A stretch of 64,000 nucleotides of DNA from Planctomycetaceae bacterium (GTDB taxonomy: Bacteria; Planctomycetota; Planctomycetia; Pirellulales; Pirellulaceae): contig JAIYDN010000095.1 in NCBI GenBank assembly GCA_027487485.1, positions 1 through 64,000 of the forward strand, read 5' to 3'. Shown here piece after piece: positions 13,107 to 27,840 of this stretch; positions within the stretch are counted from its first letter, which is position 1, and the number at the start of each line of letters is the position of its first letter. Under the pieces are notes generated by a model. That model was given only the letters and a program-made list of their open reading frames with translations. It did no database searches and was not told where the DNA came from. Made by a program: the position numbers and the translations under genes.

Positions 13107-13616
13107 AGCTAAGCGACTGTTGAACCGCGGGCGCTAGCCGCGTTGGGTTGATTTGAGCCTCGGGCGCTAGTTTTGATGTTGCGCATACTTGGCTTGGCTG
13201 CGCATTTTAGGCCCCGAGGGCCGACATATCCAATGCCGGTGGCGCGAGCCACCGGTTTTCAAAACTTAACAAACAAAGGCCTGAAGGGCCGACACATTGG
13301 CGTCTGTGTCGGCCCTTCAGGCCTGCAGTAACCTTTTGGCACGTTCCGGTGGCTTACGCCACCGGCAATGGATGTGCCGGGCTTCCAGCCCTTCCAAACC
13401 TGCGCAACATCAAAAGGCGCTAGCCGCGTTGAGTTGATTTGAGCTGGAAACGTGGTCGCGGCTAGCGCCTGCGGTTCAAATAGCGCGTAATCCATGCAGC
13501 TATAAGGCAAGGGGGTACATACTTGGGATTGCACTCGAGCTGTGTTATATTTCAGTCGGAACTTGATTTTTCTCGGTTTGTCAGAACCATTTGCACCTTG
13601 ATCCGATTGCTTTACG
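13107..13616. repeat. Nested palindromic repeats upstream of the HNH-repeat gene
   Basis: Outer arms GAACCGCGGGCGCTAGCCGC (13122) and GCGGCTAGCGCCTGCGGTTC (ending 13477) are reverse complements with one mismatch. Between them sits a 245-bp element with its own inverted ends (13171-13415). The remaining 140 bp before the next gene contains no recognisable feature beyond a likely promoter region. Open frames here are repeat-derived. Confidence 0.75.
13171..13415. mobile_element. MITE-like element, GGCCTGAAGGGCC core, with TTTTGATGTTGCGCA ends
   Basis: The left end TTTTGATGTTGCGCA (13171-13185) and the right end TGCGCAACATCAAAA (13401-13415) are exact inverted repeats. The 8-bp sequence GGCGCTAG lies immediately outside both ends (13163-13170 and 13416-13423), as a target-site duplication would. 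Inside are palindromes GGCCTGAAGGGCC and GCCGGTGGCGCGAGCCACCGG-type stems. A near-identical copy in opposite orientation is at 27458-27698. There is no transposase, so a non-autonomous element is inferred. Confidence 0.7.
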
Positions 13617-15536
13617 ATGAAGAAGAAATCCAAGAAGTTAGTATCGGATCGACAGTCGATTTTGCGGGCGATTCGGCAACGGTTCGCCGATCGATTGCCA
13701 TTGAACATAACGGCCGTGAAGCGAGATGACCCGAAATTGGTTCGGCAGGTCTACGAACAGCGTCCCTATTGGGGATGGAAAGCCGCGTTAGCGGATGCTG
13801 GACTGACCTATAACAAGATCCGCATTGAAATTGAGCAGACTGTGGTATGTCAGTTGTGTGGCAAAAGACTTGCGTCACTCATTGGTCATGTGACTCAATT
13901 GCATTTGATCGATTGCCGCGAGTATTTGGACGAGTTTCCCGGGGCCGAATTGGTCAGTGAACAGTTGCGGTCCAACAGCATGGGTGTTATCAAACAACCG
14001 CACCCCGAATGGTTAAAGCATTGGGAACCAGTCTATTCTTTGGAGTATCTGCTAGACCGCCTGAAGGAATACGCAGACCTTGGTTTTTCGATCAATCATG
14101 ACAACCTGGTTGCGATCGACACTTCGCTACCAGTCACCCTGAAGAAATATTCTGGACTGACTGATTGGGATGATTGTATTCGTGCGATTGACTTGGACCC
14201 GGTCGACTATCGCGGTCTGGTCCATAGCGACGACTTCACTTTGACTCAGTTTCAAGCGTGGTTGGCAGAACGCGAACGGGCGGGTCAGTCCTGTCTGTAC
14301 CAAGACGTGGTCGCCGAGCGTGATCATTGGCAGCGCCGTCACTTGATCGCCGTTTGGGCTCTGCGGCAATACGGGAGCTGGGCTGCGGCGTTGGACCAAG
14401 CGGGTGTGGACCGAGGCTTGCCGATTTATGGTGGACGCCATAATTTCACCACGCAAGATGTTCTTGCCCGGATCAAGCAACTGCGCCGCGACGGCCTGGA
14501 TTTGGCCCGCAAATCAGTCGTGTTAATGCCTGACGGGATGGCGATCGTAACGGCAGCAGTACGAGATTTTGGGACTTGGGAAAGTGCTTTGGATGCTGCC
14601 AAGGTCCCATTGCGAGAACGCGAACGCAAGATCCAGTTTGAAACCAAGTCCGAGGTGTTGCAAGGGATTCGCGTACGGATGAAGAATGATTGGAGCTTGG
14701 CCCCGATTGAGCTTTTCTACGGATCGCGCAACGACATGACTCTGTTCAAACAGGCCTTTCAATTTTGGGACAGCTGGGGCGACGCGGTTCAAGCCGCAGG
14801 AGGAAATCGCGAGCAGCTCAAGCAAGCCGCCGATACTCCCTATAATTCGAAAGCCAAAGTTGTTGCTGAACTCAAGCGACGCGGCCGTCAAGGGAAGCTC
14901 TTGGCCGTTCGGGAATTGACCGAATCGGTGGCAGACAAGCAACTTTATGTAATGGCTTCTGGGTATTTTGGCAAATGGCAGGAAGCGGTTCGCGCGGCAG
15001 GCGAGGACCCGCGAAAATACCATCAATGGAATTTGGAATCACCGGGCAAGTACAAGAGTCCCGAACAAGTTCTGACTGCAATTCGCCAACGTCATCGAAA
15101 AAAATTGCCGTTGCACACGCGTGGACTGACCCATGGTGAACATATGGATGTCCCGTTGCTGTACACCGCCCGGAAGCTTTTCGGAAATTGGCAAACGGCT
15201 ATTGAGAATGCCAAAATCGATTACGGCAAGATTGCACGCAAGACGCAAGACTATGCTGCTATGAAAGGACGCGTTTATCGGACCTACCAATCCAAAGAAG
15301 AAGTCCAATCCGAAGTGCAACGCCGTTATTCCTCGGAACTGCCCGTGACTTATCGAGAACTCTGTCATTCTAAGGATCCTGAGATTCGCGACAACGGACT
15401 TCTGACCGCTGGCAAAAAGTTCTTTGGCGATTGGGACAAGGCCCTGCGCCATGCCGGTATTGACCCCACCGAAGTCCAAGAGCCTTGGGTGCAAGAACGG
15501 AAAGCTCGTTTACGGAAAAAAGCCAAAGCAAAGTAG
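13617..15536 (+). CDS. Eight-repeat HNH-associated (homing-endonuclease-type) array protein with Ros/MucR-like zinc finger
   Basis: This 639-residue basic protein is built from about eight copies of a 55-65-residue module ending in a consensus F-G-x-W-x-x-A-x-x-x-A-G-[ILV]-D. Modules lie at roughly 13-68, 140-198, 207-266, 277-333, 342-400, 409-468, 479-538 and 557-620. This is the pattern of the homing-endonuclease-associated repeat (HNH_repeat), normally a DNA-binding accessory of HNH nucleases. Between repeats 1 and 2 is a Ros/MucR-like C2H2 finger (C78-x2-C81...H91-x4-H96) followed by CREYLDEFPGAELVSE. I see no HNH, GIY-YIG or other nuclease motif, so it is probably a DNA-binding protein. 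It is flanked by palindromic repeats and no partner gene is obvious. No strong ribosome site precedes the ATG. Confidence 0.75.
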   Translation: MKKKSKKLVSDRQSILRAIRQRFADRLPLNITAVKRDDPKLVRQVYEQRPYWGWKAALADAGLTYNKIRIEIEQTVVCQLCGKRLASLIGHVTQLHLIDCREYLDEFPGAELVSEQLRSNSMGVIKQPHPEWLKHWEPVYSLEYLLDRLKEYADLGFSINHDNLVAIDTSLPVTLKKYSGLTDWDDCIRAIDLDPVDYRGLVHSDDFTLTQFQAWLAERERAGQSCLYQDVVAERDHWQRRHLIAVWALRQYGSWAAALDQAGVDRGLPIYGGRHNFTTQDVLARIKQLRRDGLDLARKSVVLMPDGMAIVTAAVRDFGTWESALDAAKVPLRERERKIQFETKSEVLQGIRVRMKNDWSLAPIELFYGSRNDMTLFKQAFQFWDSWGDAVQAAGGNREQLKQAADTPYNSKAKVVAELKRRGRQGKLLAVRELTESVADKQLYVMASGYFGKWQEAVRAAGEDPRKYHQWNLESPGKYKSPEQVLTAIRQRHRKKLPLHTRGLTHGEHMDVPLLYTARKLFGNWQTAIENAKIDYGKIARKTQDYAAMKGRVYRTYQSKEEVQSEVQRRYSSELPVTYRELCHSKDPEIRDNGLLTAGKKFFGDWDKALRHAGIDPTEVQEPWVQERKARLRKKAKAK

Positions 15537-15548
15537 GCCGTAAAAGGT

Positions 15549-15676
15549 GTAGGCCGTAACAAGCGCTAGCGCAGTTACGGCAGGCCCCGCTCGCATCTTA
15601 TGGCCTGATCGAACAAGTCCACCAACTCTGGCACTCCATGCCGTAACTGCGTCCAAAGCGACTTGTTACAGCCTAC
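15549..15676. repeat. Imperfect palindrome GTAGGCCGTAACAAGCG...CGACTTGTTACAGCCTAC
   Basis: The arms at 15549-15583 and 15640-15676 share GTAGGCCGTAAC/GTTACAGCCTAC and CAGTTACGGC/GCCGTAACTG blocks in inverted order. The element fills the spacer between the HNH-repeat gene and the ECF sigma gene, leaving about 115 bp for the sigma-gene promoter. It has no coding potential. Confidence 0.65.
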
Positions 15677-15791
15677 GTCAAACGAATTGCAGATTTTTGT
15701 ATTTTCTTTGAAAGGTTGTTCTGCGGTTCAGACTTAGATACCTTAGCAGCAACAAACGTGTCCTTGATTCGAGGTTTCTGGAAAAATCCTT

Positions 15792-16415
15792 ATGGCTGAA
15801 CTTCCTGATACTCGCATCAGTTTGATAGGCCGGATCCACCGCGACCCTAACGATTCCCAAGGTTGGGCTGAGCTTGTTTCCTTGTATCAAGCTCCCATTT
15901 ATAGGACCTTGCGAGGCCGTAGACTGCAACATTCCGATGCGATGGAAGTCACCCAGCAAGTTCTTGTCGCGCTGGTTCGGTATCTGCCTCAGTTTGAAAA
16001 TGATGGCAAGCCGGCATCGTTCCGAAGATGGCTGAACCGCATCATCTCCAATTTATGCTGGAAAGCCTGGATGACGCGTCAGAATCCAGTGGGCAGTGCC
16101 CGTAGCATGGCAGCATCCGAGGAACATGGCTTCGACGATGTTGCAGATCGACAGCAGCAAGAAGAGCTACGGCACGATCTGGAAATCCAACATTATCGCC
16201 ATTGCTTTCGTATGGCCGCAGACCAAGTGCGACCATTGTTTACCACGATCACATGGCAAGCATTCTGGATGACCAGTGTCGAAGGAGTGCCAGCAAGCGA
16301 AGTCGCTAACAGGTTAGGACTGTCCCCAGGTGCCGTTTATATCGCTCGATCGCGTGTGATTGCACGCCTTCGAGCGCACGTCGAGCAAATGGAAGCCAAG
16401 GAAGACCTGGAATGA
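15792..16415 (+). CDS. ECF-type RNA polymerase sigma factor
   Basis: The 207-residue protein has a sigma-70 region 2 (WAELVSLYQAPIYRTLRGRRLQHSDAMEVTQQVLVALVRYLPQF, about 25-70, followed by FRRWLNRIISNLCWKAW) and a region 4 helix-turn-helix at the C-terminus (VEGVPASEVANRLGLSPGAVYIARSRVIARL, about 164-195). It directs polymerase to alternative promoters. Its stop overlaps the start of the kinase gene in an ATGA, so the two are translationally coupled, and the kinase product carries an anti-sigma-like zinc motif. Planctomycete ECF groups linked to Ser/Thr kinases are known; which genes this one controls is not visible. Confidence 0.93.
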   Translation: MAELPDTRISLIGRIHRDPNDSQGWAELVSLYQAPIYRTLRGRRLQHSDAMEVTQQVLVALVRYLPQFENDGKPASFRRWLNRIISNLCWKAWMTRQNPVGSARSMAASEEHGFDDVADRQQQEELRHDLEIQHYRHCFRMAADQVRPLFTTITWQAFWMTSVEGVPASEVANRLGLSPGAVYIARSRVIARLRAHVEQMEAKEDLE

Positions 16416-18001
16416 ATAAAAACGAATCATGCCTGCCAGACGATCTTCAAGCTTGGCTTTTGAATACCGATTGCGAATCCGATGGGGATCGATGGTCGAA
16501 GCATCTTGAACAGTGTACGCGTTGCCGGTCGAGAATTCAGGAGCAGACGCCATCGCTCGCGTGGTCCAATATCTTGACGGAAGATGCATGGGATCATGAA
16601 CTATCGAGCTCGACCGATGCTGCGAAGCCGCCATCTCCCATCAAGGTGTTGGATCATGCATCCCTTGAAAAGTTTGCTAAGCAAGTGATCGACAAGTCCG
16701 ACAACCCGGCCATGATGGGGCGATTGGGTGAATTCGAGATTTTGGAACCGATTGGAATGGGAGGCATGAGTCTCGTTCTGAAAGGGTACGATCACGAGCT
16801 GAATCGTTATGTGGCCATCAAAGTCCTTTCACCTCATTTGGCCATGGTGGGTGTGGCCCGTCAACGTTTTGCTCGCGAGGCCCAAGCGGCCGCTTCGATT
16901 GTAGATCCCTATGTGGTCCCAATCCATTCCGTAGCAGCGGACCACGACCCACCTTACTTGGTCATGACGTATGTTCCGGGCCAGACGTTGCAAGCGACTA
17001 TCGATGCTGAAGGGGCCTTGGATGTCGTGGCAGCGGTTCGGATTGCCTATCAAGTTGCAATGGGGCTTGCTGCAGCTCATGCGCAAGGTTTGGTGCATCG
17101 CGACATCAAGCCCAGCAATATTCTGCTCGAGAGAAATGTGCAGAAGGCATTTATTGCCGACTTCGGGCTGGCTCGAGCGGCTGACGATGCGAGCTTGACG
17201 CGAAGTGGATTCCTGGCTGGAACGCCCGATTTTATGTCCCCCGAACAAGCTCGAGGTGAAGCCATAGACGCTCGATCGGATCTGTTTAGTTTAGGAAGTG
17301 TGCTGTACACGATGCTCACAGGGCATCCCCCCTTTCGCGCAGCTTCGCCGATGGCCGTCCTGAATCGTATATCCCAGGATAAGCCACGCCCTATTTTGAC
17401 TTGTAACCCCCAGGTTCCCTTTTGGTTATCAAGTTTTGTGGATCGTCTATTGAGCAAGCATCCATCGGACCGTCATGCATCGGCGGTGCAGACTGCAGAA
17501 CTTTTGGAAGGGGCGCTTCGGCATCTACAGGATCCCGTGGGTTGCCCGTTGCCCGCGATGTTGGTCAGCCCCAATCCGACTTTACAACTGCGTAGGAAAC
17601 GACTCTTCGCCATTTCTTGCGTGCTGATGGGCGCACTTGCGGGTTGCTTGGGTCTTGCGTATTGGCGTCCTTTTTCGCCGTTCACCCAGCCACCGATGGC
17701 GGTCAATCCAACCGCCGAAAACGCCAAAGCAGATCCCACCGAGGGGCCAGGTACGAATGCGAACCCGTTCGGATCGACCGAGTCCGACCGGGATTGGATT
17801 CAGGCGGTGGGCGAGATTGAACGCGATATGGAACGGTGGGAAGGAGAGCTGCGAAACCAGCTTTCGAGGCCCGAAACGGGGCCGTTGCCTGAAGTCGATG
17901 AAGGCTCACAGGAATCATTTAGCCGCAAGCTCATGGAAGGTTTTCGAGTGTACGAACAGCAATTAGATCAATGGCTTCAAGAATTAAGGACTGAGGGGTA
18001 A
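16412..18001 (+). CDS. Membrane Ser/Thr protein kinase with N-terminal zinc anti-sigma-like motif
   Basis: The 529-residue protein begins with an H31-x3-C35-x2-C38 motif typical of zinc-binding anti-sigma factors. A complete Hanks-type kinase follows: glycine loop IGMGGMS at 114-120, K137 in VAIKV, catalytic HRDIKPSN at 229-236 with D231, DFG at 250-252, and GTPDFMSPEQ in the activation segment. One membrane helix lies at about 395-415, with an acidic tail of about 110 residues outside. It overlaps the ECF gene by 4 nt. The likely role is to hold the sigma factor and release or modify it on an extracytoplasmic signal (inference). Confidence 0.92.
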   Translation: MNKNESCLPDDLQAWLLNTDCESDGDRWSKHLEQCTRCRSRIQEQTPSLAWSNILTEDAWDHELSSSTDAAKPPSPIKVLDHASLEKFAKQVIDKSDNPAMMGRLGEFEILEPIGMGGMSLVLKGYDHELNRYVAIKVLSPHLAMVGVARQRFAREAQAAASIVDPYVVPIHSVAADHDPPYLVMTYVPGQTLQATIDAEGALDVVAAVRIAYQVAMGLAAAHAQGLVHRDIKPSNILLERNVQKAFIADFGLARAADDASLTRSGFLAGTPDFMSPEQARGEAIDARSDLFSLGSVLYTMLTGHPPFRAASPMAVLNRISQDKPRPILTCNPQVPFWLSSFVDRLLSKHPSDRHASAVQTAELLEGALRHLQDPVGCPLPAMLVSPNPTLQLRRKRLFAISCVLMGALAGCLGLAYWRPFSPFTQPPMAVNPTAENAKADPTEGPGTNANPFGSTESDRDWIQAVGEIERDMERWEGELRNQLSRPETGPLPEVDEGSQESFSRKLMEGFRVYEQQLDQWLQELRTEG

Positions 18002-27324: not shown

Positions 27325-27457
27325 AAAGATGGTACTCAGCACAGACGCAAAAGTTCATTGGGGTGATTGGCAGTTAGCCTTTTGCATTAGTGAGCCGCGG
27401 GCGCTAGCCGCGTTGAGTTCAATGGAGTTGGTAAAGTGGTCTCGGCTAGCGTCTGCG

Positions 27458-27698
27458 GATGTTGCGCAGGTTTGGAAGGGCTGGAAGCCCGGCACATTCA
27501 TTGCCGGTGGCGTAAGCCACCGGAACGTGCCAAGAAGTTATTTCAGGCCTGAAGGGCCGTCACAGACGCCAGTGTGTCGGCCCTTCAGGCCTTTGTTGGT
27601 TAAGATTTGTGAACCGGTGGCTCGCGCCACCGGCATTGGATGTGTCGGCCCTCCGGGCCTAGAATGCGCAGCCAAGCCAAACATGCGCAACATCAAAA
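27458..27698. mobile_element. MITE-like element, GGCCTGAAGGGCC core, inverted copy
   Basis: It begins GATGTTGCGCAGG and ends ATGCGCAACATCAAAA, and along its length it is the reverse complement of the element at 13171-13415, with scattered differences. The left end lacks the TTTT present elsewhere, so it is slightly truncated, and I cannot define a clean target duplication. Internal stems include AGGCCTGAAGGGCC/GGCCCTTCAGGCCT and GCCGGTGGC/GCCACCGG. Confidence 0.7.
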
Positions 27699-27732
27699 CT
27701 AGCGGCTGCGTTTTGAATAGGACGAATTTAAT

Positions 27733-27802
27733 GAGCCGCGGGCGCTAGCCGCGTTGAGATTTATTGAGCTGGAAGCTTGGTCGCGGCTTGCGCCTGCAGC
27801 TC
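27733..27802. repeat. GCTAGC palindrome, also found at 27392 and 56776
   Basis: The arms GAGCCGCGGGCGCTAGCCGC and CGCGGCTTGCGCCTGCAGCTC are inverted repeats around about 28 bp. The same plan (GAGCC-x-GCGCTAGCCG ... CGGCTAGCG-x-GGCTC) is present at 27392-27458 and 56776-56835, and around the element at 13122-13477. It would form a stable hairpin in RNA. The function is unknown. Confidence 0.7.
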
Positions 27803-27840
27803 AACCAAGTCGAAGGTGAAACGGGAAAGGAAAAGCGGTT

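Follow-up and report, generated by a model that had tools for sequence, protein, structure and literature searches.

The window, by which we mean the whole stretch of 64,000 nucleotides that was analysed, carries on its + strand, at 13617-15536, an open reading frame for a protein of 639 residues in which eight helical repeats are combined with one zinc finger of the Ros type. All eight repeats lie in tandem within this single frame: repeat 1 at residues 10-67 (13644-13817), repeat 2, which is degenerate, at 139-197 (14031-14207), repeat 3 at 207-268 (14235-14420), repeat 4 at 276-334 (14442-14618), repeat 5 at 343-400 (14643-14816), repeat 6 at 410-467 (14844-15017), repeat 7 at 480-538 (15054-15230) and repeat 8 at 558-619 (15288-15473), the starts being approximate. 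They end in a pattern of the type F-G-x-W-x-x-A, with variants in repeats 1, 2 and 5. The finger follows repeat 1, at residues about 75-122 (13839-13982), and the pI of the whole protein is 9.5. A sequence-only reading of this DNA had described the protein as eight HNH-associated repeats and one Ros-like finger with no nuclease, and the profile search that it proposed bears this out: the protein matches the Pfam family HNH_repeat (PF18780) at E 1.2e-15, scoring 58 bits where the cut-off is 26, and searches of Pfam, NCBIfam and PHROGs with E up to 1 list no family of nucleases for the chain (a range in which the HMMER filters discard most matches above E 0.1). Nothing in these listings thus marks it as a homing or HNH endonuclease, and none of the anti-phage defence families of PADLOC-DB matches it at E up to 0.001. 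The repeat family is known, and the architecture seen here, eight HNH_repeats and a Ros-type finger, represents a new form of it.

The repeats can be recovered from outside the family. An HMM built from 149 repeats, whose source proteins do not belong to the eight-repeat family, finds seven of the eight (repeat 1 with 42.3 bits, repeat 3 with 15.6, repeat 4 with 38.1, repeat 5 with 18.8, repeat 6 with 41.3, repeat 7 with 46.9 and repeat 8 with 39.4) and has no match in 1000 shuffled versions of the protein, in a test that is not wholly independent because its 149 repeats were picked with the HMM of the eight-repeat family. The one that escapes is the degenerate repeat 2; its helix order in the AlphaFold2 model is that of the other repeats, and it is the weakest (E 8.3e-4) of the eight detected by a repeat profile of 98 rows, repeats of orthologues among them. 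When this profile was searched against the 7.49-Mb genome of the window, it placed all eight repeats in the frame 13617-15536 and revealed no further convincing HNH_repeat protein, the sole other match being marginal (E 0.0099). That marginal match, G000:C58:22685-22744, lies in the same genome inside an open frame of 11,402 residues.

The four finger ligands, C78, C81, H91 and H96, are invariant in all nine rows of the alignment. A search with the Ros/MucR model, also proposed from the sequence alone, gave a divided answer: ROS_MUCR (PF05443) does not appear among the matches of the window protein, listed up to E 1, and it reaches 29.4 bits in the G184 orthologue, above the cut-off of 25.4, and 16.6-24.5 bits in the five other orthologues scanned, so that one of six passes. 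The family profile nevertheless matches the solved structure of Ros (PDB 2jsp) at E 1.5e-4, and residues 70-121 of our model superpose on it with Z 4.8 and an rmsd of 2.9 over 52 aligned residues. By its ligands and by its fold, this is therefore a finger of the Ros/MucR C2H2 type; it shares the ligand pattern and the structure of the Ros/MucR regulators, and differs from them in that it makes up a small part of a 639-residue repeat protein and falls below the Pfam model. Ros itself is described as binding an A/T-rich site (PMC9779718).

Palindromic repeats do exist on both sides of the gene, as had been noticed, but they do not belong to it. The upstream one is a composite at 13110-13480, with at least 48 matches in the genome (a count over both strands that includes the composite itself, with 40 scored out of 150 candidates), of which at least 10 distinct places cover 217 or more of the 371 bases. 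The downstream one, of about 128 bp at 15549-15676, has at least 45 matches (its own copy counted; 40 of 66 candidates scored), at least 27 of them spanning 120 or more bases. Both are dispersed repeats lying outside the gene, which rules them out as targets of the protein or as gene boundaries. Moreover, the downstream repeat was found in only one of 20 other genomes tested, that of the close relative G002, and is absent from the other 19, nine of which carry the gene, so that it is not a conserved target. The large composite occurs twice in the window, the second copy (27400-27804) being inverted. A match to the Rfam family Acido-Lenti-1 in the intergenic stretch 13346-13392 (29.9 bits) was rejected, since it lies under the gathering score of 37.

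Immediately before the gene, a stretch of 127 nt on the + strand (13490-13616) is conserved at 90.6% with G002 and includes a sigma-70-like site at 13523-13551; three promoter-like sites were found in 13400-15800 against 1.4 expected. Short-word blastn detected no upstream motif common to the orthologues beyond close pairs, and there is consequently nothing to suggest a common autoregulatory site. A 9-mer at 13546-13554 equals half of the published ros-box and overlaps the promoter-like -10; it occurs once in the 64 kb where 0.20 is expected, 19 of 100 shuffles have at least one, and, having been noticed post hoc, it may be due to chance. Downstream of the gene lies a kinase-like gene (16412-17998) that is matched by many PADLOC models of the PD-T4-6 kinase (best E 2.3e-84), probably because these models describe a general Ser/Thr kinase.

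Among 241 genomes of the family, 13 match the protein at E <= 1e-15; two of these, G034 and G035, were dropped as carrying finger-less arrays, which leaves 11 genomes with the gene, that of the window included. Eight of these copies are full length, two are cut by contig ends (G022 and G139) and one is degraded (G140). The seven full-length orthologues are 45-92% identical to the window protein and keep its layout, and each of the eight full-length copies has the finger together with eight repeats, as counted by an HMM of the family itself. Compared with the G002 orthologue, at 92% identity, dN is 0.046 and dS 0.54, a ratio of 0.086 by the NG86 method and 0.123 by YN00. On the strength of these ratios, the gene is real and, as far as sequence comparison can tell, it is under purifying selection averaged over the chain.

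A survey of the neighbours of the homologues, again one of the checks proposed at the outset, found that the orthologues stand alone, mostly at unrelated loci, with no operon partner. Neighbour genes are common to close pairs alone (window/G002, G022/G024 and G169/G171), and the sole other cross-match among the orthologue loci concerns a kinase-like ORF, at 30-37%. The distribution of identities is also unusual. The window protein is 77% identical to that of G139, which belongs to another genus, and 50% identical to that of G024, from its own genus (residues 329-638 aligned), whereas tyrosyl-tRNA synthetase (TyrRS) shows the reverse, with 58% for G139 and 72% for G024. The tree of the repeat protein (ten rows, two of them partial, with a tested group that was named after the identities had been seen) rejects the genus of the window as one clade with a p-AU of 2e-54; the TyrRS tree unites this genus (98/97) and disfavours a grouping of the window and G002 with G139/G140 (p-AU 0.015). 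Since the repeat-protein tree conflicts with the genus and the TyrRS tree agrees with it, lateral transfer is the simplest explanation, and the gene has apparently moved between genera; ancient duplicates followed by many losses are a possible alternative. No empty insertion site was found, either around TyrRS in nine relatives, where TyrRS (in some also IspD) was recognised and the window genes beyond TyrRS had no homologue, or in the genus of G169, where the third genome, without the gene, also lacks the neighbour gene.

More distant proteins with a finger and an array are present in other families of the order and of the phylum. The module made of repeat 1, the finger, an 'HWEP' motif and repeat 2 is kept in G282 and G446, where a finger-less array ORF adjoins; G584 likewise retains this module, and in G604 (four copies), G773 and G663 the finger is followed by arrays. 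By HMM, these relatives have 3 to 9 repeats, the longest being cut by the end of its locus, and ROS_MUCR is found at E <= 0.01 in five of the seven scanned, one of them over the cut-off, the exceptions being L072 (G584) and L080 (G604). With the module as a query, six of 392 genomes of the phylum match at E <= 1e-8, G000 included, and in one of them, G742, no finger was seen in the best frame. At L065:8058-9973, in another family of the order, a finger-type and a finger-less array are encoded by adjacent, overlapping ORFs, as if the single chain of the window had been split or fused.

The same bacteria also contain finger-less arrays, and these keep different company, lying beside a serine recombinase (PF00239, PF07508) and two ParB/RepB-like genes. 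At least one gene of this cassette was found at 15 of 16 finger-less loci with longer flanks, and all three at 12 of them (the 16 are a subset of the hits, several of them come from one genome, and one supplied the query proteins); the sole exception is a contig of 3.2 kb. By contrast, no cassette gene was found at any of 20 finger-type loci, seven of which are only about 3.4-3.6 kb long and three of which are truncated or degraded orthologues, nor did recombinase or ParB genes of the cassette appear anywhere in the 64-kb window by tblastn at E 1e-8. The window gene is thus not a member of a recombinase-ParB-ParB-HNH_repeat cassette. The cassettes of Planctomycetota resemble it in having nuclease-free arrays in the same phylum and family, and differ in that their arrays are finger-less and lie within a cassette, whereas the window gene stands alone. 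The cassette recurs in Pirellula-type and other planctomycetes (L033:5025-8284, L034, L026, L031, L068, L069, L070 and others), in the order serine recombinase, two ParB/RepB-like genes, then at least one HNH_repeat array of varying length; that of L034 adjoins ORFs that, by eye, resemble phage tail genes.

The name of the HNH_repeat family rests only on its association with homing endonucleases, and the sequence-only reading had supposed that such repeats usually accompany a nuclease. For planctomycetes this expectation finds no support: none of the 57 planctomycete repeat proteins scanned has a nuclease family. The searches yielded 68 repeat proteins, seven of which were set aside as short or cut; among the 61 scanned, 60 have PF18780, 10 have ROS_MUCR and two have an HNH family, in a sample that is not neutral because it was drawn by likeness to the window's repeats. 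The two HNH carriers, L091 and L093, are both haloarchaeal plasmid proteins, HNH_2 lying just under the cut-off in L091. Such PF18780 proteins, including the haloarchaeal ones with a C-terminal HNH, belong to the same repeat family and have tandem arrays; the window protein differs from them by having no listed nuclease family, by the Ros-type finger after repeat 1 and by its planctomycete origin. Among the 40 plasmid records listed, eight are annotated 'HNH endonuclease' under the match and nearly all others 'hypothetical protein'. HNH_repeat arrays thus occur in planctomycetes, on haloarchaeal and Bacillus plasmids and in a few phages: four phage records match the Bacillus array query, none matches the window protein, and four queries yielded no confirmed locus in viral contigs. 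A survey with single PF18780 repeats matched six of 149 genomes, which is an undercount, since at its threshold there was no match even in the window's own genome with its eight repeats.

These associations raise the question of whether the array is the targeting arm of a selfish element, once or still guiding a nuclease or a recombinase in trans, and persisting or spreading alone. The signs of horizontal movement in the two trees speak for this hypothesis, as do the HNH domains fused to such arrays in haloarchaeal plasmid proteins, the 'HNH endonuclease' annotations on plasmids and the finger-less arrays in recombinase cassettes of the same bacterial family. We nevertheless think it unlikely, because the cassette genes keep to the finger-less loci and are seen at none of the 20 finger-type ones examined, because the genome of the window has no second convincing HNH_repeat protein, and because the chain is on average under purifying selection.

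We rather favour the view that the protein is a DNA binder in its own right, and here the strongest clue comes from Bacillus plasmids, which carry arrays of closely similar HNH_repeats (L092:4902-7517, L135:2902-5859 and L138:1501-5185). A protein of 872 residues consists of 15 closely similar repeats whose scaffold is invariant at many positions. Variability is greatest at four positions which, in the numbering from the conserved F, are -7, -13, -6 and -3; when mapped on the model of the window's repeat 7, -7, -6 and -3 fall in helix 3 and -13 at the start of helix 2. Mean entropy is 1.64 bits at positions -14 to -1 against 0.66 elsewhere (permutation p 0.00025, for a region that was chosen after the profile had been seen), on a sample of 21 non-redundant repeats from 33 distinct and 50 in total on three plasmids, and the chance of all four top positions falling inside -14 to -1 is 0.006. 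Repeats with a common first half but differing helix-3 segments exist, and two sister arrays, of 872 and 986 residues, are identical at 854 of 872 aligned residues except for one insertion of 114 residues, that is, two repeat lengths. Judged from sequence, such a pattern would be expected of a modular reader.

The family of the window shows related features. Diversity between its repeats is very high at the four positions that vary in Bacillus, and over 43 positions mapped by hand, with six orthologues, position diversity in Bacillus is correlated with the diversity among the repeats of the window family (Spearman 0.46, p 0.0018); a weaker correlation (rho 0.32, p 0.034) links it to the amount by which conservation among orthologues exceeds identity between repeats. 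At exposed positions, conservation among orthologues is higher in helix 3 than in helix 1 (0.52 against 0.36, p 0.022; 5 and 10 positions in six orthologues, with exposure classed by composition). When the helices are taken whole, six of the eight repeats conserve helix 3 better than helix 1, with margins of 0.08 to 0.39; in repeat 8 the two helices are level, and in repeat 2 helix 1 is the more conserved. It follows that most units retain a helix 3 of their own, unlike those of their neighbours. Shared ancestry alone accounts for part of this conservation, so it is the contrast between helices that is informative, to a modest degree. The K/R content of helix 3 is not high, at 0.14 against 0.27 for helix 1, which counts against the DNA-binding interpretation given below.

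This contrast also bears on the hypothesis that the protein structures the nucleoid in the manner of MucR or H-NS, binding many AT-rich places with low specificity, the repeats only adding affinity. Its finger is of the Ros/MucR type, and Ros/MucR proteins have been classed as H-NS-like; but a helix 3 more conserved than helix 1 in most repeats would be needless for binding of low specificity, and a gene with so patchy a distribution, 11 of 241 genomes of the family, does not encode a core nucleoid protein. This hypothesis seems to us more improbable than that of a selfish element.

Some idea of the fold is given by repeat 7 modelled singly with AlphaFold2 (69 residues, 98-row alignment), for which pLDDT is 87.3 and pTM 0.73. 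Its helices span 9-21, 28-32, 39-49, 52-58 and 63-67, that is, four helices and a short fifth. The layout may be read as resembling a helix-turn-helix, a reading of the layout only, since solved structures gave no match: the single-repeat model had none among PDB and viral structures at E <= 0.001, the best Foldseek E in the PDB being 2.4 and the best viral row an uncharacterised phage protein of 136 residues (E 0.64, probability 0.97, TM-score 0.66). The fold relatives of the single repeat returned by VIA, at up to Z 3.1, were set aside as too weak to use; they include one TetR-family protein (Z 2.4) and one small viral protein (Z 2.0). Prediction of the whole chain, proposed in the sequence-only reading and run on the chain alone, was useful for the finger, which matches 2jsp, but for little else: pTM is 0.37, so that the model does not give the arrangement of the units, and apart from the finger the structure search of the full-length model returned only noise. 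That the array has RNA or proteins as its partners and leaves DNA binding to the finger, as the weak resemblance between single repeats and helical-repeat chains, PPR10 among them (Z 2.5), might suggest, is in our opinion the least probable alternative, since such Z values are at noise level for helical models and relatives fuse these repeats to HNH domains and Ros-type fingers, both of which are linked to DNA.

Our own interpretation, which we hold to be probable without being confident of it, is that the window protein is a stand-alone, sequence-specific DNA binder, most likely a regulator or a chromosome-structuring factor, in which one helical unit would correspond to one DNA segment. Putative DNA binding is favoured by the Ros-type finger with its conserved ligands, by the basic pI and by the variability of helices 2 and 3 in Bacillus; from these we infer DNA as the ligand, a helix 3 turned towards the bases, units in register along the site and a regulatory role. 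The protein would then bind a single site, long and asymmetric, on which all eight units of four helices would each touch a short segment of their own through helix 3, assisted by a helix-2 residue; the finger, lying between units 1 and 2, would provide an extra contact or an anchor.

The idea that successive repeats read DNA in a modular way had been raised from the window alone, and it has now gained indirect backing, so that the interpretation given in that first reading is supported in part: sequence evidence from the relatives, namely the helix-2/3 variability in Bacillus and the 114-residue insertion, points towards putative base reading. One observation on the family of the window counts against it, since a repeat number fixed at eight in every full-length copy is unlike a fast-evolving, code-like array. 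TALE repeats, with which comparison is inevitable, are of 33-35 residues, have a variable position of two residues and read one base per repeat. The Bacillus relatives are like TALEs and TALE-like proteins (BurrH and its relatives) in their constant scaffold, their few hypervariable positions and the gain or loss of whole repeats, a likeness in the way of working only. The HNH_repeat core is not TALE-like in itself, having about 57-60 residues, four helices and several variable positions, and the window orthologues, for their part, keep eight diverged repeats.

One may go further and suppose that HNH_repeat arrays are natural modular DNA readers distinct from TALEs and from eukaryotic zinc-finger arrays, whose four-helix units of about 57-60 residues would each read a short stretch of DNA through the hypervariable positions -13, -7, -6 and -3 and would be retargeted by gain, loss and recombination of units, the window protein being a member maintained for long, anchored by its Ros finger and with a target fixed at eight units. 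We offer this wider proposal tentatively, and are ourselves inclined to doubt it. A TALE-inspired screen of 2017 covered only repeats of 30-43 residues (PMC5472282), and its main text mentions neither HNH nor Bacillus. One published table of modelled repeat families does give HNH_repeat a row (PMC8078820); we found no other naming of HNH_repeat or PF18780 in the open-licence literature, and nothing there on planctomycetes together with MucR and zinc finger, or with ParB and serine recombinase.

If such arrays do read DNA unit by unit, they would constitute a further natural modular DNA-binding scaffold, and planctomycetes would gain a laterally moving regulator with a mappable target. The two Bacillus alleles are a natural experiment in this respect, since they differ by a block of two repeat lengths. 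In one plasmid the array is divided between two ORFs, and the best seven of the plasmid records listed have 10-14 match places each.
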